Below are positions 8,073-50,413 of a stretch of DNA of 60,912 nucleotides, piece by piece. The notes beneath the pieces were generated by a model. The model did not search any database and had not been told where the DNA came from. It saw only the letters and a list, made by a program, of their open reading frames with translations. The position numbers and the translations under genes were made by a program. Source of the stretch: a virus; IMG/VR virus record IMGVR_UViG_3300038620_000113, positions 1-60,912 of that record; one strand, given 5' to 3'. The stretch's first letter is position 1. Each line of letters begins with the position of its first letter.

Positions 8073-9497
8073 TTAAGAAAATCCAAATGATTTTTCAATA
8101 TCAGCATGATCGTCATCTGAACCCAAATTTTCACCTTTGGAATTCGAATTATTAGAACTGGACGTTAAAGATGGCGTGGTCTGTGAACTCCATCTAACTT
8201 CATTTGTTTCTGTAAACCTTAAATGATTTTCTTGAAGTTTAAACATTGCTTTGGATTGCTTACTTCCCGAATCTCTTGTTTTTACAATTTGTAACCATGA
8301 TTCATTTTCATCGGCTTCTTCATCTGCTTGTTGTATTCCAATAAGGGTATCCGCTGTTGCAGCAACTCCAAATGATTCAGCAATATTAGTCATATCAATA
8401 GTTACTTTTTCACCAGATGACCTGTTAAGTTGTGTTGCTGTAACTACACAATAATTATTTTCAACACCTATGCCTCTTATTTCTTCAGATATTCCCTTTA
8501 CTTTTTCATACATTTGAGCCTTATCATTACCAGCATATCGCATAAGATTAATATAATCTAAAACCAAAACATCTATATTCACATTATTAACCTCTTCTAA
8601 CTTTTTAAGATACGATTCTAAGTTCAATGGGGTTGTTTTTGAAGTTGGAAATTGTTTAACAAATAAACTGCCAGGTGGTGTAAGTGGGTTACTTGTTTTT
8701 AATTGATGTAATTTATTTTTAACCTTATCAGTATCTTTAGACCATTCATCATAATTATAAATATCTACATTAAACAGATTCGATCCAACTCTTTTCATAA
8801 CTGTATGCTCTCCCATTTCTAAAGTGACATAAACACAATTTTTTCCACTTTTAATATAATTAGCAGTTATATTGCATAACCAGTTAGACTTTCCCACATT
8901 CGGAAGTCCTAAAAATAAATTAAGTGTACCCTTTGCAAACCCACCATTAAAAGCAGTATCAAGAAAATAAAATCCAGTTGGCAGTATTTCAGAATATTCA
9001 TCTGGTTTATGATCTTCAGCATTAAAAAAGTCTTTGCCGTAATCAAAACTTAAATCAATACTATAACCCTTCTCTAATTCGCGTTTTACATCCTCTTTTA
9101 ATTGTGATAAATTTTCAGGTGTTATTTCCCTGCTCTTTATTATTTCTATTGCATTTACAAAATGTTCATCAAAGTGGTTATATTCTATCCATGACTCTGC
9201 ATTTTCTTTGAGCCAATTTGGGTCTAACTGATTTAAGTCATATTCAAATATTTTTTCAATATGTGATTGATCAAGGTTTTTGTACTTATCTTTGCTTTTT
9301 TTAAGTTGTGTTACATAACGTATTGTTTGTTCTTTTGTTGGAATATTACGATACTTATAGTAAAATTTTTTATTAATACTGTAAGTCAATTTAATTTCTT
9401 CATCTTGAAAATAGTCTTCTTTAACATAATCAAAGTATTCTGGATTTTTACGTATGTAATGTAAAAAGATTTTTTCAAAATTTGTGTCACTTGTCAT
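8073..9497 (-). CDS. 41: Replicative DNA helicase, DnaB/T4 gp41 type
   Basis: 474 residues, the usual size for gp41. The Walker A motif GLPNVGKS (about 197-204) follows GFYFLDTAFNGGFAKG. Then come VYVTLEMGE (H1a), VLVLDYINLM (Walker B, about 313-322) and a Gln motif in VVTATQLNRSSG (H3). The N-terminal 170 residues are the helical primase-interaction region. A Ser/Asn-rich linker precedes the C-terminal DIEKSFGFS. The protein would form a hexamer and unwind DNA 5'-3' at the fork. A gp61 primase is not seen nearby. Confidence 0.9.
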   Translation of the reverse strand: MTSDTNFEKIFLHYIRKNPEYFDYVKEDYFQDEEIKLTYSINKKFYYKYRNIPTKEQTIRYVTQLKKSKDKYKNLDQSHIEKIFEYDLNQLDPNWLKENAESWIEYNHFDEHFVNAIEIIKSREITPENLSQLKEDVKRELEKGYSIDLSFDYGKDFFNAEDHKPDEYSEILPTGFYFLDTAFNGGFAKGTLNLFLGLPNVGKSNWLCNITANYIKSGKNCVYVTLEMGEHTVMKRVGSNLFNVDIYNYDEWSKDTDKVKNKLHQLKTSNPLTPPGSLFVKQFPTSKTTPLNLESYLKKLEEVNNVNIDVLVLDYINLMRYAGNDKAQMYEKVKGISEEIRGIGVENNYCVVTATQLNRSSGEKVTIDMTNIAESFGVAATADTLIGIQQADEEADENESWLQIVKTRDSGSKQSKAMFKLQENHLRFTETNEVRWSSQTTPSLTSSSNNSNSKGENLGSDDDHADIEKSFGFS

Positions 9498-9544: not shown

Positions 9545-9643
9545 TTATTTATCTTCAATTTCTTCTAAGTAAATATGAACATTAAATTTAACAGGTTCTG
9601 CTCTAAGTTCTGAACTTTCAAGTTTTGAATTAAAGTATTTTAT
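9545..9643 (-). pseudogene. 3' remnant of a gene cut off by a dam copy
   Basis: On the minus strand a coding-like frame of about 32 codons (ending in FNVHIYLEEIEDK then TAA) has no start codon and opens just after a TGA within the 3' end of the dam gene at 9630. Composition and codon use look coding. I read it as the tail of a gene that stood upstream of the helicase before a dam copy replaced its 5' part. Its identity cannot be told. Confidence 0.4.
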
Positions 9644-10520
9644 TCATTCTTAAAAGTTCTTGACAACGGGGATTAATCCATATAGATTCCGTTCTGGCAG
9701 CATGTTTTGTAGCTGATCCTTTTCCTTGTAATTTACTTCCTTTTATTTTTCCAGCCATACTAGAAGATGTTGCAAAATCAAATCTTTTCCAATTACAATC
9801 TTCTAGTTGTTTATAAATTTCATTATTGTAACCAGATAGGGTTACTGAACCTTCAACTTGTAAAATTAAGTTAATCAATTCTTGGTGGTGGTTGTTGGTC
9901 ATTTCGTGTTTATATTTTTCGCTTTTTCGTGTGGATTCAACATAAGGTGGATCAAGATAAAATACTGTATTTGGACTATCATATTTTCTAATAACTTCCA
10001 AAGCATCTTGATTGTACAAATAAGTATTATTTAATCTTTGGTGCCACTTTTCAAATAGATTTTGGTGAGCTGTCCATTTTGAAGATACTTCCGCCATATT
10101 TTTTGTAGAAGCTAATACGGCCCGACCCCAATCACCTTCACTTTTACAGTACATTCCACCAAACCCTTGGTTAAACATAATATAAAAAGCCCAAAAACGT
10201 TCTAACTCATTATTATAAAGTTCTTCATTCCAAAACCATTTCAAACATTTAGCAAATTCTTTACGTGAGTAAAAAGTTTGGTTAATGATCTTTTCCATCT
10301 TTTGATAGTCATCCCGTAAAATTCGATAAAGATTGATTATATCAGAATTAAGTTCATTAAGAATTTCGGTTTTTACTGGATTTCTATAAAGAAAAAGGTT
10401 GGCTGCACCTGCATAAGGTTCTACATAAACATTCGTTCGAGGAATGAATTTGTTTATCTTAGTCTTATGATTTCCTTTACCTCCCATATAGCCAAAAGGG
10501 GGAATTAAATCTTTTTTCAT
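9630..10520 (-). CDS. dam: D12-class N6-adenine DNA methyltransferase, copy 1
   Basis: 296 residues. The SAM-binding motif is PPFGYMGGKGNHK (about 7-19), followed by PYAGAANLFLYR. The catalytic motif is FYLDPPYVEST (about 192-202). All are typical of Dam/DpnM-type enzymes acting on GATC-like sites. The N- and C-terminal thirds are nearly identical to the copies at 11802 and 12699. The middle (about residues 115-180), where D12 enzymes keep their target-recognition region, differs strongly. The start is 3 bp from the uvsX stop, so it is translated in an operon with uvsX. Likely role: protection from host restriction. Confidence 0.9.
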   Translation of the reverse strand: MKKDLIPPFGYMGGKGNHKTKINKFIPRTNVYVEPYAGAANLFLYRNPVKTEILNELNSDIINLYRILRDDYQKMEKIINQTFYSRKEFAKCLKWFWNEELYNNELERFWAFYIMFNQGFGGMYCKSEGDWGRAVLASTKNMAEVSSKWTAHQNLFEKWHQRLNNTYLYNQDALEVIRKYDSPNTVFYLDPPYVESTRKSEKYKHEMTNNHHQELINLILQVEGSVTLSGYNNEIYKQLEDCNWKRFDFATSSSMAGKIKGSKLQGKGSATKHAARTESIWINPRCQELLRMNKIL

Positions 10521-10523
10521 AGC

Positions 10524-11744
10524 CTATTCTTCAGGTTCATCACTTTCTTTAATTTCATCAACATCAAGTTCAAAACTTTCAGAAAAATCCTCAAATTCAA
10601 ACTTAGGCTTAATAGCTTTTTCATCTATCTTTTCAAGAACAACATCATTAAATACTTTTGGGTTAAAAAATCCTTTAGAATCATTTGTAGGTACAGTATC
10701 ACAAAGATGTTTAATAACAAAGTTTCTAGCATTTGGATTGGGTTCAAAACGATAAACTTCTTCAAGTTCACCAGTTTCTTCATTAAACATTTCAATTATC
10801 TTATCATCGTTAGGATCATAAGTTTCCATTTCTTTCTTTTTAAGTTTTTCAAGTTTTCCACGACCAATTCCACAAACATCCCAACTTACATAATCTTGAA
10901 GTCCAACATAAGGATTCATTCCTTCTGTAAAACTAACATGGATTTTAACAGTGCTAGGAATTGTTAGTCTTGACTTAAAAGGATTAACAGTTATAATAAC
11001 ACCTGTTTTTTGTTTATCAGAATCTTTTTGATATGCTTTACTCAGCATTCCAACAAAACTAGCAGGATAAATTGCACCATCACCACCTTTTATGGCACGT
11101 GGGTCGCCGTATGCATTCATGGAATTATAAACTTGATTTGTATAAATCATTGGTATTTCAAGATTAGCAAATCTTGAAACAGTCAAACGAAAAAGCTTTC
11201 TGATTTCTCTGGCAGGCGTAAAATCCTGTTTTGTTTCATTTTTTTGAACATCCTCAATTTCTTTTTCAGTTGCAAGTTGATTTAGTGAATCAAGAATAAC
11301 AACTGTTTTTAAGTCATCATTTGAAAGTTTGTTATCTTCTTTATGTTTTTCAAAAGTAGTTGCAAGACGTTCAAAATAATGATGGGCTTCCTTAAATGTA
11401 CCAACTAAAACATGCCTAAAACCTTCAAGATCAATACCGAACTTTTTAACTTGTTCGGGTTCAATGGCATTTTCAGAATCAACAAATATTACATAATATC
11501 CTTTATCTTGAAATTGCTTTGCTGCATTCAAACACAAAAAGGTTTTTCCTGTTTGGGGTTCACCCGCAAAAGAAACGAGTCTATTGCCCGGGTAGCCTCG
11601 AAATATACTGCCTGATATACAAGCATTAAGAAGATAATTTCCTGTATGAATGTATTCGCGAATTCCACGAATGTTAGACATGTTATCGCCTCTATCATCA
11701 AATTCTGAAACCAAACTGCTAATATTTTTGAAAGCGTTGCTCAT
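10524..11744 (-). CDS. uvsX: UvsX/RecA-like recombinase
   Basis: 406 residues. The Walker A motif GEPQTGKTFLCLNAAK lies at about 61-76, and IFVDSENAIEP follows. Walker B is VVILDSLNQLA, and an L2-like loop with NQVYNSMNAYGDPRAIKGGDG contains the usual recombinase Gly-rich segment. The C-terminus is acidic (DEIKESDEPEE), as in RecA and UvsX. The protein promotes strand exchange for repair and recombination-dependent replication. It is flanked on both sides by dam copies, so the T4-type order has been broken by duplication. The 57-bp gap to the next dam gene could hold a promoter. Confidence 0.92.
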   Translation of the reverse strand: MSNAFKNISSLVSEFDDRGDNMSNIRGIREYIHTGNYLLNACISGSIFRGYPGNRLVSFAGEPQTGKTFLCLNAAKQFQDKGYYVIFVDSENAIEPEQVKKFGIDLEGFRHVLVGTFKEAHHYFERLATTFEKHKEDNKLSNDDLKTVVILDSLNQLATEKEIEDVQKNETKQDFTPAREIRKLFRLTVSRFANLEIPMIYTNQVYNSMNAYGDPRAIKGGDGAIYPASFVGMLSKAYQKDSDKQKTGVIITVNPFKSRLTIPSTVKIHVSFTEGMNPYVGLQDYVSWDVCGIGRGKLEKLKKKEMETYDPNDDKIIEMFNEETGELEEVYRFEPNPNARNFVIKHLCDTVPTNDSKGFFNPKVFNDVVLEKIDEKAIKPKFEFEDFSESFELDVDEIKESDEPEE

Positions 11745-11801
11745 AATTACTCTACTTTTTATTTATGTTTTACAATACTAATATAGAAAAAATACAATGA
11801 T

Positions 11802-12695
11802 TTACAAAATTTTATTCATTCCTAAAAGTTCTTGGCATCTTGGATTTATCCAGATAGATTCAGTTCTGGCAGCATGTTTTGTAGCTGATCCCTTTCCTTG
11901 TAATTTACTTCCTTTTATTCTTCCAGCCATGTATGAAGATGTTGCAAAATCAAATCTTTTCCAATTACAATCTTCTAGTTGTTTATAAATTTCATTATTA
12001 TAACCAGATAAAGTTACAGAGCCTTTACAGTTTAAAATTAAATCAATCAAGTTAGAATGGTGGCTATCAGTCATTTCATATTTGTACTCCTCTTTCTGGC
12101 GGGTAGAACGAACATAAGGAGGATCAAGATAAAAGACTGTACTCGGATTGTCGTATTGTTTAATAATTTCTAAAGCATCTTGGTTATGTAAGTAAGTATT
12201 TTTTAAGCGTTTGTTCCATGATTCAAACATATTTTGACGGAGTATCCATTTTGAAGATACTCCCGCCATGTTTTTTTTAGAAGTTAATATATTACGACTC
12301 CAACTACTATCACTTTTAATGTAGGTACCACTAAACCCTTTGTTAAACACTATATAAAAGGCCCAAAACCTTTCAAATTCATTACTATGTTCTTCTTCAT
12401 TCCAAAACCATTTCAAACATTTAGCAAGTTCTTTTCTAGAAAAAAAAGTTTGGTTAATGATCTTTTCCATCTTTTGATAGTCATCCCGTAAAATTCGATA
12501 AAGATTGATTATATCCAAATTAAGTTCATTAAGAACTTCAGTTTCTACAGGATTTCTATAAAAGAAAAGGTTAGCTGCACCTGCATAAGGTTCTACATAG
12601 ATAGATGTTCTAGGGATAAACTTGTTTATCTTAGTCTTATGATTTCCTTTTCCTCCCATATACTGAAAAGGGGGAATTAAATCATTCTTTTTCAT
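11802..12695 (-). CDS. dam: D12-class N6-adenine DNA methyltransferase, copy 2
   Basis: 297 residues. FQYMGGKGNHK and FYLDPPYVRST are intact, so it should be active. The first 100 and last 90 residues match copy 1 almost residue for residue, while the segment from FNKGFSGTYIKS to NTYLHNQ is divergent. The differences cluster in the presumed target-recognition region. The stop is 57 bp from the uvsX start. The gene begins 3 bp after copy 3 ends, so copies 2 and 3 are a tandem pair. Sequence specificity cannot be predicted. Confidence 0.9.
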   Translation of the reverse strand: MKKNDLIPPFQYMGGKGNHKTKINKFIPRTSIYVEPYAGAANLFFYRNPVETEVLNELNLDIINLYRILRDDYQKMEKIINQTFFSRKELAKCLKWFWNEEEHSNEFERFWAFYIVFNKGFSGTYIKSDSSWSRNILTSKKNMAGVSSKWILRQNMFESWNKRLKNTYLHNQDALEIIKQYDNPSTVFYLDPPYVRSTRQKEEYKYEMTDSHHSNLIDLILNCKGSVTLSGYNNEIYKQLEDCNWKRFDFATSSYMAGRIKGSKLQGKGSATKHAARTESIWINPRCQELLGMNKIL

Positions 12696-12698
12696 AAA

Positions 12699-13592
12699 TT
12701 AAAATATTTTATTGGAACCTAAAAGTTCTTGGCATCTTGAATTAATCCATATAGATTCGGTTCGGGGAGCATGTTTTGTAGCTGATCCTTTTCCTTGTAA
12801 TTTACTTCCTTTTATTCTTCCAGCCATACTAGAAGATGTTGCAAAATCAAATCTTTTCCAATTACAATCTTCTAGTTGTTTATAAATTTCATTATTATAA
12901 CCAGATAAAGTTACAGAGCCTTTACAGTTTAAAATTAAATCAATTAACTTTTGATGATGAGAATCAGACATTTCATGCTTATATTCCCCACTTTTTCGTG
13001 TGGATTCAACATAAGGTGGATCAAGATAAAATACTGTATCTGGGCTATCATATTTTTTAATTATATCTAAAGCATCTTGATTATATAAGTTTACATTCTT
13101 TAAGCGAGAATGCCATTCCGCAAAAAGGTTATTTCGGGTGCTACTTCTTGAAGTAGCACTAGCTCGATTATTTGTTGATGTTAATATTTCACGTCCCCAA
13201 CTACCATCACTTGTAACTTGAATTCCACCAAACCCCTGATTAAACATAGTATAAAAAGCCCAAAATCTTTCTAACTCATTATTATATTTTTTTTCATTCC
13301 AAAACCATTTTAAACATTTAGAAAATTCTTTACGAGAATAAAAAGTTAAGTTAATGATTTTTTCAATGTTTTGATAATCATCTCTAAGAATAGAGTAAAG
13401 GTTAAATATATCTGAATTTAATTCATTCAAAACTTCTGTTTCTACTGGTTGACGGTAAAAGAAAAGATTCGCAGCTCCAGCATATGGTTCTACATAGATA
13501 GATGTTCGAGGGATGAATTTATTAACTTGAACTTTATTACTTCCTTTTCCTCCCATATACCGAAAAGGAGGAATTAAATCTTTCTTTTTCAT
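12699..13592 (-). CDS. dam: D12-class N6-adenine DNA methyltransferase, copy 3
   Basis: 297 residues with FRYMGGKGSNK and FYLDPPYVEST. It is again nearly identical to its sisters at both ends but differs in the centre (FGGIQVTSDGSWGRE, then NNRASATSRSSTRNN). It begins 3 bp after the polymerase gene stops. The three dam genes and uvsX thus form one leftward operon behind the polymerase. The pattern suggests tandem duplication followed by selected change of target specificity, or recombination with relatives that have other centres. Confidence 0.9.
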   Translation of the reverse strand: MKKKDLIPPFRYMGGKGSNKVQVNKFIPRTSIYVEPYAGAANLFFYRQPVETEVLNELNSDIFNLYSILRDDYQNIEKIINLTFYSRKEFSKCLKWFWNEKKYNNELERFWAFYTMFNQGFGGIQVTSDGSWGREILTSTNNRASATSRSSTRNNLFAEWHSRLKNVNLYNQDALDIIKKYDSPDTVFYLDPPYVESTRKSGEYKHEMSDSHHQKLIDLILNCKGSVTLSGYNNEIYKQLEDCNWKRFDFATSSSMAGRIKGSKLQGKGSATKHAPRTESIWINSRCQELLGSNKIF

Positions 13593-13595
13593 AAA

Positions 13596-14864
13596 TTAAA
13601 ATATTGAATTAAATACCACAAGAGAATCACTAAGTTCTGAATAACCCATAACCTTAATAAATCTGTTAATAGTATTAAGAAATGTTACTCGAAACATTGT
13701 ATCATAATCAAACTTAGGTGCAATCTCTTGAGGAAAATCGCCCACTTTATATGCAAATACATTAACTGCGTTACTGCTTAACTTTGTATCAACATTTGTA
13801 TGTATATAGTAATACTTAATTTTTTCACCAGATAATATAAACTGATATTTGTCTTTATACTTTGAGTTATAAAGTAAATAATTATAATAAGCTGCAGCTT
13901 TTAACTGAATGGGGGTTCCCTTGTGAATTTCTAACGCAGTAGTATCATTAATAATCCAGTTTTCATAGTTATTGCAACTCTTTGTAATAGCAATATCTTC
14001 TATATCGCAAAGCTTGTATTCTTTTTTAATTTCACTTATGTTTTTAACAAACTCATTTATAGAAAAGTTTTTAGAATTCTTAAATATATAAACAAGTTGT
14101 TCTTTAATTTTATCTCGAACAAACTTTGGGGTTTCACCTCTTACAAGTTCTACACCTTTTGATGAAAGATTGTCATAAGGGTTTTTGATAAGCTTTTCAA
14201 AATTTCTATTAAGCGATCCATCCGAATCAAAACCTGTAGGTTCCCACCTTGGAGCCAACACATACTTTTTCTTTGCAAGCCAAAGTCCGGTTACTGAATA
14301 AGCTTCTGGTTCAAAAACCTGATAAGGTTTGCCACGATTATTATAATATGGCACATAAAATTCATTAGAAAGTTTTTTAAGTTTATTTTCTATAACACCT
14401 TTTAATCTGTTATTATAAAGAGTTACTATATAATCAATTTCATCAGTATTATCAGGATTTATATTAGTACTTTTAAAAACTTGATCCAATTCAACATAGT
14501 TTGAATCTGTATCAATATAATTAACGACATTTTCTTTTATCGGCTTAACCTTTTCATGATTTATACCCATTGCAGTATGAAGTTCTTTATCTTTATGCCA
14601 TGCTTTCTTAAAGTAATTATCAATTACATGAGCCATTTCTTTAATTTGCTTTTGCCCTTGCAATGTTACAGCTTCTGCAACATTTTCATTGTAACATGTA
14701 AAATTTTTATAGCCAATGGTTCCATACATAGAATTAATAAGAATCTTAAATGCACTAGCTTGATTATCATAAAAATCTTTAAGATGTTTAAGACGTTTAA
14801 TTTCAGATTCTATTTCATCTTTAGTTGGATTTTCGGAAAGATTTGCATAATTGAATTCTTCCAT
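13596..14864 (-). CDS. 43: DNA polymerase gp43, C-terminal (polymerase) part of a split family B enzyme
   Basis: 422 residues, about half of a family B polymerase. Motif B is present near the N-terminus (KILINSMYGTIGY, about 42-54), then motif C (YIDTDSNYVEL, about 117-127) and the thumb region. Motif A (DxxSLYPS) and the 3'-5' exonuclease motifs are absent, and no N-terminal half lies upstream. The protein starts MEEFNYANLSENP. Split gp43 genes with separate exonuclease and polymerase parts are known in some T4 relatives. The missing half must lie outside the window. No intein C-fragment is visible at its start, so the break is a plain gene split. Confidence 0.8.
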   Translation of the reverse strand: MEEFNYANLSENPTKDEIESEIKRLKHLKDFYDNQASAFKILINSMYGTIGYKNFTCYNENVAEAVTLQGQKQIKEMAHVIDNYFKKAWHKDKELHTAMGINHEKVKPIKENVVNYIDTDSNYVELDQVFKSTNINPDNTDEIDYIVTLYNNRLKGVIENKLKKLSNEFYVPYYNNRGKPYQVFEPEAYSVTGLWLAKKKYVLAPRWEPTGFDSDGSLNRNFEKLIKNPYDNLSSKGVELVRGETPKFVRDKIKEQLVYIFKNSKNFSINEFVKNISEIKKEYKLCDIEDIAITKSCNNYENWIINDTTALEIHKGTPIQLKAAAYYNYLLYNSKYKDKYQFILSGEKIKYYYIHTNVDTKLSSNAVNVFAYKVGDFPQEIAPKFDYDTMFRVTFLNTINRFIKVMGYSELSDSLVVFNSIF

Positions 14865-34681: not shown

Positions 34682-35299
34682 ATGAACACCACTTTGTGTG
34701 GTTGTAATTTTTCAAACGAAAGTCCAAAAATTCTTTTTTTTATTGAGCAAGTAGATTATCAAACTGCAATGAAAATTGTAATTGATAATCACTATTTGCA
34801 CAGAAAGCCACCTTGTAGCAGAGCTTATGGAATTTTTTGTAATTCCTGTCAAAAGATATTAGGAGTAGTGGTGTATGGTGTTTCTTGCAGTAACACTTTA
34901 TTAAGAGGAATTTGTGGTGAAGATGAAGCAAACAGCGTTTATGAACTTACAAGACTATGGATAAAGGATGGAACACCAAGAAATACTGAAAGTTATCTTA
35001 TAGGAAATACATTAAAGTTACTTGATAAGGAAATAATAGTTTCGTTTTCCGAAATAGCACAGGGGCATATTGGAACAGTTTACCAAGCCACAAATTTTTT
35101 ATATTGTGGATTGAGTGCAAAATTCAGAGACCCAAAAGTTAAAGGACTTGAACACCAACACCATGCAACCTATGCTAGAAATATGACTATGAAGCAAGTC
35201 AAGGAAAAGTATGGAGAAGAAAACGTTTACTATGTAGATAGACCAAGAAAGCACCGATATATTTTTTTTAACGGAAAAAGGAACTTTTTAAAAAGTTAA
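34682..35299 (+). CDS. mom: Mom-like DNA adenine-modifying acyltransferase
   Basis: 205 residues. The signature is clear: MKIVIDNHYLHRKPP (about 30-44), AYGIFCNS, GVVVYGVSCS, VYELTRLWIKDGTPRNTES (about 88-106), IVSFSEIAQGHIGTVYQATNF and LSAKFRDP. This is the family of phage Mu Mom, a GNAT-type enzyme that converts adenine to a carbamoylmethyl derivative, making DNA resistant to many restriction enzymes. The N-terminal 20 residues with Cys pairs (CGCNF) are extra. It stands beside TnpB and the tRNA region and fits with the methylases elsewhere in the window. Confidence 0.75.
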   Translation: MNTTLCGCNFSNESPKILFFIEQVDYQTAMKIVIDNHYLHRKPPCSRAYGIFCNSCQKILGVVVYGVSCSNTLLRGICGEDEANSVYELTRLWIKDGTPRNTESYLIGNTLKLLDKEIIVSFSEIAQGHIGTVYQATNFLYCGLSAKFRDPKVKGLEHQHHATYARNMTMKQVKEKYGEENVYYVDRPRKHRYIFFNGKRNFLKS

Positions 35300-35344: not shown

Positions 35345-36562
35345 TTATTTTTGCTGTTTTTCGTGGCGAAAGGTACGGTAACAGCCTTTCCGGTCGATAT
35401 TCAATGCCGCATTATAATCGGCATTAGTTGAATATCCACAATCAATACATCTAAACCGCTCTTGAGAGGAACGATTTTCACGATGCAATGAACCACAATT
35501 AGAGCAAGTCTGACTAGTATAAGCCGGTGAAACCTTCATCAACTTGATACCAGTTTCACTACAAACTTGCTCTAGTTTCTTTATAGTTTTAGCGTAAGAC
35601 CAGTATTGAAGTTTGTTGTTAGTCTTTTTGCCTAACTTGGATTTATGCTTGACTTGTTTGAGGTCTTCGATAGAAAGCAATTCCACACCGTTTAGGTCTA
35701 ATTTTTGGTTAATACAATAATTGATTAAATTATCTCGTTGAATCAGTTTCCGCTTGTAAGCCTTAGAGCCGCGTTGTTTACGGGTGATTTGTTCATAGAG
35801 GCTATCAAATTCTTGACCTATTGATTGATTATCACTAGTCTGAATAAAGACCTTCTGACCTAAGTCAATTCCTATATGAGAACAATCGGGATTAGCCATT
35901 GGCTGCGGGGCATTCTTCTCCCAAAACAAGTTAATAAATGTCTTACCTGATTTTCTTTGTACTTGAATAGTATTTTTGAGTTGATACTGGCTATTGAGTA
36001 ACTGATTGGAATGACGGTGTTGTTTAAGTGGTAGATGAATGGTATAATAACGGTTTTTAGTATTGTAGTTGCGGTAGGGAGTGGTTATTTTAACGAAGTT
36101 ATCAAAATGATTTCCCCTTCTTATGTTACAAAGAGCACTCTCTAGGCTTAAATTAACATTATTCAAATTAGGCTTAGTAAAATATTTGCTTAAATGAACC
36201 GGCTTGAGATTGAGTTTTTTGAATCGCTTTTGTAAGAATGGATGATTGGGCTTATGTTTTATCAAGTAAGCATAAACCTTTTGATAGCGCTTATAACGGC
36301 GCTGGTTGGCTTTGGAACTTTGAGATCGAATGATTTCGGATGCCTGTTTATAGGCGGCTTTCCGATACTTAGAATGCTCAATGTTACAAACAATAGGTAA
36401 ATTAGAATTGCCTAGAGTGGCCCGCAAAGGCAATTGATTGGCTAGAATCAAATCTAAGTAATGATTAACACAACGAGTATAATCTTCCATTACTTGATTC
36501 AGGAACCTTAACTTACCTTGATTGGTTATCCGAGTAATGCTATGCCGTGAGGTTTTAATCAA
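35345..36562 (-). CDS. tnpB: TnpB RNA-guided nuclease of an IS200/IS605-type element
   Basis: 405 residues, the standard TnpB size. RuvC-I is SHIGIDLGQKV (about 231-241), RuvC-II ELLSIEDLKQV (about 292-302) and RuvC-III NADYNAALNI (about 380-389). The zinc ribbon is TCSNCG...FRCIDCG. All catalytic D-E-D residues are present. Its GC content is clearly above the neighbours', showing recent transfer. No TnpA transposase is visible, so the element is non-autonomous or TnpB is domesticated. Its reRNA would overlap the 3' end and run below 35345. A 60-bp remnant of another copy lies at 31231. Confidence 0.9.
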   Translation of the reverse strand: MIKTSRHSITRITNQGKLRFLNQVMEDYTRCVNHYLDLILANQLPLRATLGNSNLPIVCNIEHSKYRKAAYKQASEIIRSQSSKANQRRYKRYQKVYAYLIKHKPNHPFLQKRFKKLNLKPVHLSKYFTKPNLNNVNLSLESALCNIRRGNHFDNFVKITTPYRNYNTKNRYYTIHLPLKQHRHSNQLLNSQYQLKNTIQVQRKSGKTFINLFWEKNAPQPMANPDCSHIGIDLGQKVFIQTSDNQSIGQEFDSLYEQITRKQRGSKAYKRKLIQRDNLINYCINQKLDLNGVELLSIEDLKQVKHKSKLGKKTNNKLQYWSYAKTIKKLEQVCSETGIKLMKVSPAYTSQTCSNCGSLHRENRSSQERFRCIDCGYSTNADYNAALNIDRKGCYRTFRHEKQQK

Positions 36563-47692: not shown

Positions 47693-48994
47693 ATGAATAA
47701 CAACACAGTAAAAAATTTTTGTAACAAGTTACAAAAGTGGTATTCAGAATCTTACAATAAAGTAACAGTTTCAAATAATCTAAACACTGAAGATATTCTT
47801 ACTGAAATTATTATTCAGTGTACTTACTTATGGTTTTTGAAGGAATTAAAAATTATTTCAAGCGACTTATTTGATAAACAAAAGATTTATACTATTTTAA
47901 AGGCTAGTAGTAATGATACTGGTTATTTTAACGGAATTTTACAAAATGTATTTTTTAATGGGATGAAAACAAATCTTAGTGAATATGCTATAGTTCAAAG
48001 TAAAGACTTGTTTTTAGATATTGAAAATTTTGAAAGCTTGTTAAACAAAATACCTTATTTAGATACAGAACTTTTTAATAATTCAAAGTTTCTTTATGAT
48101 AACCCATCAGAACTAGATTCTACACATATTCCAAATACACTGTTTTTCAATGATAACAAAAGTGGTATCATTGACTTGCTCAGTCAATATTCTTTTTTAA
48201 CAAATGAAAAAGAAGTATCACAATCAGATTCTGAATTAGACCCAGAAGTACTAGGAACCGTTTTTGAAAATTTACTAGCACAGTATAATCCCGAAACAAA
48301 GACAACCGCTAGGAAACAGTCTGGTTCTTTCTATACCCCCAAAGAAATTGTAAATTATATGGTAAATGAATCAATTGTTAAACAACTTTCTGAAAAAACA
48401 AGTTATCATGAAGATTCTATTAGAAATTTAGTTGTACATGAAAAAGTTGATAGTTTTAAAAATGAAAATAATAAAGAAGAATTAGTAAGAATAATAAGTA
48501 GGTTAAAAATTCTTGATCCTGCTTGTGGTTCTGGTGCTTTTCCTATTGGAGTTATTCAAAGACTTGTTAAGGTTCTTAAAGTTCTTGATTCTGATAATAC
48601 ACTATGGAAAAGGTGTCAACAGGAAATAGCCGAAGGATATGATAAAGATTTTCCAGAACCCACAAGTTTAGATATTGATAAAAGATTAAACTTAATTGAA
48701 GAAACTTTTAACCAAAATAATAAAAGTTTAGATTATTCAAGAAAGTTTTTTATTTTAGTAAACAATTTATATGGTATAGATATTCAGCCGATGGCAGTTC
48801 AAATTTGTAAACTTAGATTTTATCTTTCTTTGCTTATAGAACAAGAAATTGATTATAATGAAATAAATTATGGAATATCTTATTTTCCAGACTTAAGCCA
48901 AACTTTTATTGTTGAAAATGCTTTAACAATGGACATGAATGATAAAAATTCTAAAAAGCCAAAAGGTCATATTGGAATAGATGATATAATGTAG
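47693..48994 (+). CDS. Eco57I-type adenine methyltransferase, N-terminal part before an in-frame amber
   Basis: 433 residues. GSFYTPKEIVNYMV (about 208-221) and motif I, LDPACGSGAFPIGVIQ (about 274-289), are those of Eco57I/type IIG and BREX-like adenine methyltransferases; LYGIDIQPMAVQICKLR (about 360-376) is motif II-III. The sequence stops at TAG (48992-48994), before the catalytic NPPY. The next gene continues in the same frame. Composition is as AT-rich as the phage. Either the two halves work as separate polypeptides, or the amber is read through, or this is a recent break. Confidence 0.75.
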   Translation: MNNNTVKNFCNKLQKWYSESYNKVTVSNNLNTEDILTEIIIQCTYLWFLKELKIISSDLFDKQKIYTILKASSNDTGYFNGILQNVFFNGMKTNLSEYAIVQSKDLFLDIENFESLLNKIPYLDTELFNNSKFLYDNPSELDSTHIPNTLFFNDNKSGIIDLLSQYSFLTNEKEVSQSDSELDPEVLGTVFENLLAQYNPETKTTARKQSGSFYTPKEIVNYMVNESIVKQLSEKTSYHEDSIRNLVVHEKVDSFKNENNKEELVRIISRLKILDPACGSGAFPIGVIQRLVKVLKVLDSDNTLWKRCQQEIAEGYDKDFPEPTSLDIDKRLNLIEETFNQNNKSLDYSRKFFILVNNLYGIDIQPMAVQICKLRFYLSLLIEQEIDYNEINYGISYFPDLSQTFIVENALTMDMNDKNSKKPKGHIGIDDIM

Positions 48995-49003
48995 AACAAT
49001 TTT

Positions 49004-50413
49004 ATGAATAAGTTAAAAGTAAACAGTTTTGATATAGTGATCGGAAATCCCCCATATATAAGGACAAAAGACATTCCTCAATACACAAAGCAACATTTAA
49101 GTTCCTCTTACGAATCAGCGACAAACTCCTATGACATCTACGTCTGCTTTATTGAAAGGAGCATGAGGCTTTTGGATAATACAGGGGATCTTGTATTTAT
49201 ACTACCGACCAAATTTTTTAATGCAGACTATGGCTTGGGTATACGCAAGTTGATATGGAGGAATCGATGGCTATATAAGGTGCTTGATTTCAAGGCTGCC
49301 CAAATGTTTGAGTCCTCAACAAATTATACCTGTATTCTTCATCTCAAAAGCTCCTCTCAAAACAGCTATCAATATACAAGCTTCGGCAGCAATCCTTCAA
49401 AAGAAACCTTTATTGCCTATATCAATGACGCTCGTATTGATCATCAAACTATAGAAGAATTTACTGATAATACTTCTAAGCTGACAGAGGGCTATTGGTA
49501 CTTTATTCCTCCTGATAAGAGGCCCGTGTTTAGCAAGATGGAAAGAATGGGAGTTACCTTAGAGGGATTAACCGATGATATTTTTGTGGGACTCCAAACG
49601 AGTGCAGACCCTATATATATACTAGAAAAGACAAAGCAAGGGTATTATTATTCGAAATACCTGGAAGCCCATGTAGCACTGGAAGACGAATTTATGCGCC
49701 CCTTGCTTCGGGGCGGCGAGATTCAACGCTACAAAGTAGATTTTCAGAATCAGTGCATTATTTTTCCCTACCATATCAATGGCAACCGCGCCAGTTTGAT
49801 CCCGGCAAATGAGCTCCAGCAAAACTATCCGTTTGTATGGGATTATCTGTGCCGCTGCGAAGAGAAACTACGAGGCCGCGAGCAAGGGAAAATGGATCAT
49901 GAAGGCTGGTATGGGTTTGGTAGGACACAAAACATTGCGGCTTTTGGTCAATCTAAAATCATGACACAGGTGTTGGCCAGGGGAGCAGCGATGGTGCCGG
50001 ATAGAGAGGGGATGTACCGCTTCGTAGGGGGTGGCAACGCAGGCGGGTATGGCATCGTACTAAGACAGGATGCGGGTATTTCCTATGAATGTTTGGTAGC
50101 GCTGCTTAATAGCAAATTGCTGGAAACCTATCTACAGTATCATTCTAGCCTATTCCGGGGTGGCTATTATTCTTACTCAAAGCGGTACTTGAAGGAACTG
50201 CCTATAGTTATTCCAAACGAGGAGCTACAGGCTTATCTAGCAGCTCGTGTCAATAGCATACTTACCAAAAAGACACAAGATCGTGATACAACTGCCGAAG
50301 AACAAGAGATCGACCGCTTAGTCTACCAGCTCTATAGGCTGACTTATGATGAAGTTTTGGTAATTGATCCCGAACCGCCCTTTAGCCGGGAAGCATACAA
50401 CAACAATAATTAA
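49004..50413 (+). CDS. Eco57I-type adenine methyltransferase, C-terminal catalytic part
   Basis: 469 residues. Motif IV, DIVIGNPPYIRTKDI, stands at residues about 9-23. A long target-recognition domain follows, with YWYFIPPDKRPVFSKMERMG, GLQTSADPIYIL and the TaqI-like C-terminal segment. GC content rises sharply from about 49050 on (GGCCGCGAGCAAGG-like stretches near 49870), unlike the N-terminal half and all neighbours, so this part is a recent bacterial acquisition. The frame is the same as upstream with only a TAG between. No endonuclease motif was seen; protection from restriction is likely. Confidence 0.75.
   Translation: MNKLKVNSFDIVIGNPPYIRTKDIPQYTKQHLSSSYESATNSYDIYVCFIERSMRLLDNTGDLVFILPTKFFNADYGLGIRKLIWRNRWLYKVLDFKAAQMFESSTNYTCILHLKSSSQNSYQYTSFGSNPSKETFIAYINDARIDHQTIEEFTDNTSKLTEGYWYFIPPDKRPVFSKMERMGVTLEGLTDDIFVGLQTSADPIYILEKTKQGYYYSKYLEAHVALEDEFMRPLLRGGEIQRYKVDFQNQCIIFPYHINGNRASLIPANELQQNYPFVWDYLCRCEEKLRGREQGKMDHEGWYGFGRTQNIAAFGQSKIMTQVLARGAAMVPDREGMYRFVGGGNAGGYGIVLRQDAGISYECLVALLNSKLLETYLQYHSSLFRGGYYSYSKRYLKELPIVIPNEELQAYLAARVNSILTKKTQDRDTTAEEQEIDRLVYQLYRLTYDEVLVIDPEPPFSREAYNNNN

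Follow-up and report, generated by a model that had tools for sequence, protein, structure and literature searches.

Introduction

Adenine methylases of the alpha class carry the AdoMet motif, the recognition region and the DPPY motif in that order. In the multispecific phage cytosine methylases of the SPbeta/phi3T type, several recognition domains are placed in each protein and several targets are modified per phage. Several DNA-modifying enzymes in a single phage are already known and are commonly of different kinds. The base contacts of E. coli Dam (EcoDam) are described in PMC10073500: K9 reads base pair 1, L122 and P134 read base pair 3, R124 reads base pair 4 and Y119 intercalates. According to PMC6567924, the substitution K9A permits methylation outside GATC. 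In lactococcal phages, the methylases are reported to block restriction enzyme cutting (PMC4190342). In jumbo phages, the possession of more than one DNA methylase is proposed to help, possibly, against several restriction systems (PMC7824862).

The locus described here contains three D12-class adenine methylases of one family. It is a seemingly home-made set, in which a single methylase was duplicated and mainly the DNA-reading residues diverged.

Organization of the methylase locus

The window, i.e. the whole stretch of DNA that was analysed, is a virus record of 60,912 bases in which PF02086 has three places only, the genes D1, D2 and D3. An earlier note, made from the sequence alone, had located these genes and placed them around uvsX, and both observations hold: the ORFs are intact, lie on the minus strand and each exceeds the PF02086 cut-off. 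D1 (9630..10520, 296 aa; PF02086 E=1e-18) is downstream of uvsX, D2 (11802..12695, 297 aa; E=2.8e-17) is upstream of it, and D3 (12699..13592, 297 aa; E=4.8e-16) stands in tandem with D2, from which it is separated by a 3-nt spacer. All three are annotated as D12-class adenine-N6 DNA methyltransferases. The gene of the UvsX/RecA-like recombinase (10524..11744, minus strand, 406 aa; PF00154 E=2.6e-14) sits between D1 and the D2-D3 pair and is followed by D1 three bases later. Directly upstream of D3, a family-B DNA polymerase is represented by its C-terminal half only (13596..14864, minus strand; PF00136, profile positions 144-238 of 453). A gp41-like replicative helicase (8073..9497, minus strand), which aligns with the helicases of the relative L085 and other huge phages at 26-36%, is downstream of D1. 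The minus-strand transcription order is polymerase C-terminal half, D3, D2, uvsX, D1 and gp41-like helicase. The proteins encoded by D1, D2 and D3 are 77-80% identical (80% for D1 and D2).

The best phage matches of uvsX, among the matches listed, come from Lak phages and from huge phages with genomes of 462-735 kb. The window therefore probably represents part of a huge-phage genome.

Relatives of the locus

The scans behind the D12 and huge-phage loci considered here covered the best 80 loci per scan. Single-protein scans with D2 and with uvsX gave no close relative of the trio, and the alignment-based scans and local comparison gave none above about 41% identity among the matches listed. 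Two D12 ORFs occur in 10 of 239 D12 loci, the closest such pair being 44% identical among the loci listed, and the 77-80% identity of the trio is not met elsewhere among these 239 loci. Among the matches listed, the examined stretches of the huge-phage relatives L085, L093-L098, L173, L175 and L176 contain no D12 gene, and four T4-like loci (L107, L114, L118 and L141) contain a distant one a few kb before pol.

In 9 of 10 syntenic huge-phage relatives, among the matches listed, a gene of about 100 aa lies between uvsX and gp41 (L095:5880-6179 and equivalents, KLKVKYVLGN...YPxxED). The L095 copy has no PHROGs match, and the 60,912-base window holds no trace of this gene. An open tail of 32 codons (9545..9643, minus strand), without a start codon or a homologue, overlaps the end of D1. 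It has no phage match, and neither the retrieved loci nor the gene of about 100 aa resembles it above chance. In the reading of the earlier note, one of the copies took the place of another gene's 5' part. The replacement of another gene by D1 is supported by its position, which matches the ~100-aa gene slot. The tail, which is unlike that gene, is possibly the remains of a displaced gene.

The gap between the polymerase and uvsX is a putative cargo site, because it is empty in some relatives and filled with up to 3.3 kb in others. In L094 and L097 it holds a glycosyltransferase-like pair, judged by eye from the sequence. The relatives L093-L098, L173 and L176 likewise have short polymerase ORFs close to uvsX, and because of this recurrence the split polymerase looks like a trait of the phage group. 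In the 462-kb relative (L085:4741-8141) an ORF of 567 aa separates the two ORFs of the polymerase, the second of which begins, by eye, with an intein-like end.

Class and motifs of the methylases

The three proteins belong to the D12 class, with PF02086 scores of 68.5, 63.7 and 59.7 bits against a cut-off of 22. The alpha-class motif order is present: GGK and VEPYxG near residues 14-39, the centre at 111-170 and DPPY at 191-194. G39 and DPPY are invariant across 68 aligned sequences. D1, D2 and D3 all retain DPPY, the AdoMet-pocket motif and an aromatic residue at the flipping position.

The label Dam, which the earlier note had given to the copies, does not suit them. The scores to the Dam model NCBIfam TIGR00571 (75.9, 73.7 and 63.2) stay below its curated cut-off of 114.85. 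The GATC-reading signature, defined as [GN][LM]xRxN followed by F[NT]xP[FY]G[RK], occurs only in EcoDam and T4Dam among 211 aligned sequences and is not found in D1-D3. The copies are better called D12-class adenine methylases, a name that leaves the target unspecified. In the window, GATC is seen 134 times against 185.7 expected and CATG and GTAC are mildly avoided too, signals that are too weak to name a target.

Divergence of the recognition region

The divergent centre, alignment positions 111-170, corresponds to 10014..10193 in D1, 12186..12365 in D2 and 13083..13262 in D3 (minus strand). Residues 115-180, which had been described as strongly different, are indeed only 52-61% identical (D1-D2 40/66, D1-D3 36/66, D2-D3 34/66). 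The end regions are 81-88% identical in protein, with 99/113, 93/113 and 92/114 for residues 1-114 and 99/117, 100/117 and 102/117 for residues 181-297 (D1-D2, D1-D3 and D2-D3, respectively). The description of these ends as almost identical goes too far: in DNA, codons 21-80 of D3 are only 72-77% identical to those of D1 and D2, and residues 201-220 differ too. The gene is a patchwork, and the statement that the copies differ in their centre alone likewise overstates the case. In DNA, D1 and D2 agree fully over codons 61-80, D1 and D3 almost fully over codons 181-200 and D2 and D3 fully over codons 221-240, and other flank stretches are 67-77% alike. Codons 141-160 of D3 have a DNA identity of only 53% to D1 and D2.

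The controls confirm that the centre has diverged in excess. The control set was formed from the 239 D12 loci, which gave 206 full-length distinct sequences and, with EcoDam, T4Dam and the trio, 211 aligned sequences. The centre/flank divergence ratio of the trio pairs is 2.56, 2.75 and 3.14, to which conversion in the flanks itself contributes. In 1598 control D12 pairs of 55-92% identity, which are non-independent (a single cluster of 48 bacterial sequences supplies 1115 of them), the median ratio is 0.43 and the maximum 1.86, and none reaches the trio. The per-cluster median ranges from 0.36 to 1.48 (15/17 clusters with pairs in range), the lowest value belonging to the largest bacterial cluster, in which the centre is better conserved than the flanks. 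The centre is thus not equally variable across D12 families; equal variability would have spoken against the earlier note. Residues 111-170 of the trio hold 36 variable columns against 22.7 expected from the per-column variability in D12 enzymes outside the trio (p = 1e-4, 10,000 permutations). In a less favourable test, with the controls free to pick their best 60-residue window, 49, 22 and 22 of the 1598 control pairs equal the trio pairs.

Fold and base-reading positions

The AlphaFold2 model of D2, built from a 68-row alignment, has a pLDDT of 90.8 and a pTM of 0.90. It shows the overall fold of EcoDam (2g1p; Z 24.5, rmsd 2.3, 232 residues), and also matches DpnM (Z 22.5) and T4Dam (Z 20.4). 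Mapping by hhalign places EcoDam K9 at position 11 of the copies, L122 at 124, R124 at 126, P134 at 135 and Y119 at 121. The fold match and these profile-mapped base contacts agree with the earlier proposal that the divergent centre overlaps the DNA-reading region. The residues of D1, D2 and D3 are G/Q/R at position 11, M/T/I at 124, C/I/V at 126 and A/N/E at 135. Position 121, equivalent to the intercalating Y119, is F in all three, and the copies show no variation at the column that matches EcoDam Y138.

All four base-reading positions fall on columns that are different in all three copies. Because only 12 of the 297 columns are of this kind, the chance probability is 1.6e-6, in a test framed once position 11, the sole all-different column within residues 1-100, had already drawn attention. 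The mapping of K9 and L122 is the same across every alignment tried, with p = 0.0015 for two of two. Of 12 MAFFT runs, 9 place R124 at 126 and 7 place P134 at 135; in the 211-row alignment R124 stays unaligned, and in pairwise phmmer alignments R124 and P134 fall on columns not different in all three. The divergence at the base-reading residues is stronger than the first reading of the sequence could show.

Origin of the copies

The duplication proposed in the earlier note stands. The copies are 77-80% identical, and in trees of 18 sequences they form a single group with the whole protein (support 100/100), the centre (100/98) and the flanks (100/100). The branch lengths are 0.17-0.36 in the centre versus 0.063-0.074 in the flanks. 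The end of the polymerase gene and the end of D3, with spacer and next start, carry the same run, AATATTTTAATTTATG. This common run fits a D2/D3 tandem duplication via short homology.

The recombinational exchange of recognition regions, the second half of that proposal, does not stand. The centres are closest to their sisters, with identities of 0.50-0.62 against at most 0.41 to outsiders among the D12 matches listed. The centre-only tree keeps the copies together in the same D1-D3 grouping as the flank tree, and therefore no imported recognition region is seen; on these two grounds, import of the centres from a sampled lineage was rejected. The run test on 248 polymorphic sites gives four shared tracts at p < 0.01 and no significant one within residues 111-170. 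Three are strong, each with 0/5000 permutations: D1-D2 at codons 63-82 (12451..12509 in D2 coordinates, 17 consecutive polymorphic sites), D1-D3 at codons 185-201 (12991..13039 in D3 coordinates, 12 sites) and D2-D3 at codons 218-232 (12897..12941 in D3 coordinates, 12 sites), all on the minus strand. A weaker D1-D2 tract covers codons 18-24 (p 0.009). These conversion-like tracts are the apparent footprint of gene conversion, and their position outside the centre argues that flanks were homogenised and not that centres were swapped. The centres appear to have diverged in place, without import from any sampled lineage.

Codon fits give omega values of 0.25, 0.05 and 0.14 in the centre, each of which rejects 1 (2dlnL 9.1, 33.7 and 16.5). 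Purifying selection thus acts also in the centre, and the copies are therefore not decaying. Omega above 1 was not found for any copy pair, with synonymous sites close to saturation, and positive selection was dropped as an explanation. For D1-D3, separate fits give 0.051 in the centre and 0.048 in the flank, alike because synonymous sites saturate; a contrast of 0.14 versus 0.04 is seen only with a shared branch length. The picture suggested by these sequence comparisons is one of an old duplication, with flanks homogenised in patches and a recognition face diverging in place under purifying selection.

Proposed function and alternative explanations

It is fairly probable that duplication within one huge-phage lineage gave three predicted D12 methylases, each most likely with a different short non-GATC target, which serve in anti-restriction. 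The copies share a catalytic frame, formed by the AdoMet pocket, DPPY and the base-flipping aromatic residue, and all three differ at the positions for reading base pairs 1, 3 and 4 about the flipped adenine. After replication, the three enzymes together would place methyl groups at several sites of the phage genome, which host restriction enzymes of different specificities could then not cut. We infer the enzymatic activity, the three targets and the anti-restriction role, with the phage probably marking three distinct sites in its own DNA and thereby evading several host restriction enzymes. Conversion between the copies, plausibly via the UvsX-driven recombination of the phage (UvsX as the agent being likewise our reading), would homogenise patches of the flanks. 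The recognition face would meanwhile have diverged and then stayed distinct.

The context of anti-restriction is provided by two further genes of the window. A Mom-family protein (34682-35299, plus strand; PF25680 E=7.6e-40) is likely a further adenine-modifying enzyme. Its gene is adjoined, on the opposite strand, by that of a TnpB-family RNA-guided nuclease (35345-36562, minus strand; NF040570). An Eco57I/BREX PglX-like adenine methylase is present in two pieces (47693-50413, plus strand). An in-frame TAG at codon 434, inside the Eco57I domain and just before NPPY, interrupts it; TAA ends 22 of the 26 long ORFs examined. A broken gene, a two-part enzyme and recoding are candidate readings of this split.

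Other explanations of the trio have to be weighed. It is rather unlikely that all copies modify the same site, the centre having merely drifted and the extra copies being retained for dose or by chance. Omega below 1 everywhere and the unchanged column aligned to EcoDam Y138 would agree with this, but none of the 1598 control pairs diverges like the trio, the largest bacterial cluster has a median ratio of only 0.36, and the base-reading columns differ in all three copies. A single working copy, with the others having lost sequence-specific methylation or serving regulation, packaging marks or binding, is also unlikely. Regulatory or packaging roles of phage DNA methylation are considered possible in PMC4190342 and PMC7824862, yet DPPY, the AdoMet-pocket motif and the flipping-position aromatic residue are kept in all three copies, whose ORFs are intact and whose centres are under purifying selection.

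The swapping in of recognition regions from other methylase genes by recombination is quite doubtful. Type III modA alleles are described as diversifying by this route (PMC3311624), and the 53% DNA identity of D3 codons 141-160 to D1 and D2 would suit it. The centres are nevertheless closest to each other among the matches listed, the centre-only tree keeps the trio in unchanged order, and the significant tracts lie outside 111-170, although this test would miss a donor that belonged to a sister phage outside the sample. An assembly artefact, i.e. strain variants of a single gene strung together in a metagenome contig, is very improbable. As a virus record of a public collection, the window leaves room for such an error, but the copies differ by 20-23% in protein, have three different junctions and intact ORFs, and share no exact stretch longer than 113 nt.

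Three differently targeted methylases from one duplicated gene thus stay the preferred reading. The trio, about 78% identical, is a natural matched set in which target differences would be traceable to a handful of residues, and offers a direct test of D12 DNA reading. Two processes that tend to be treated as one are also told apart here: recombination that homogenises flanks and in-place divergence that makes new specificity. It is improbable that the array is in addition a phage-borne generator of methylation specificities, with the sister copies placed around the gene of the recombinase that drives the conversion of their flanks, and with recombination in these similar flanks bringing recognition faces into new combinations as hosts change their restriction. 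If this were true, the D1/D2 direct repeats would allow gain or loss of copy number or of uvsX.

Comparison with known systems

A literature search, with subscription papers largely outside its reach, found no paper on in-genome D12 paralogues of a phage with diverged recognition faces. The fold, the catalytic motif order and the aromatic flipping residue of the copies are those of E. coli Dam, T4 Dam and DpnM. The LxRxN...F[NT]xPFG signature belongs to E. coli Dam and T4 Dam, whereas D1-D3 are without it. Each of the three known enzymes is encoded by a single gene, in contrast to the three diverged paralogues found here, which score below the Dam cut-off.

Like the copies as interpreted here, the type III modA methylases of phasevarions (PMC3311624) methylate adenine and owe their target to a recognition domain of high variability. 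The modA variants are alleles across strains and arise via import and exchange, whereas D1, D2 and D3 are paralogues in one genome whose centres appear to have diverged in place. The multiplicity of modification enzymes in phage PA5oct, with five Mom enzymes, and in lactococcal 936-type phages is read in PMC7824862 and PMC4190342 as possible protection against multiple restriction systems. The lactococcal methylases are of different groups and are interpreted there as independently acquired; in the present phage, a single family expanded within the lineage. The SPbeta/phi3T-type cytosine methylases join many recognition domains in one protein, whereas the present locus has one per protein, distributed over three genes.
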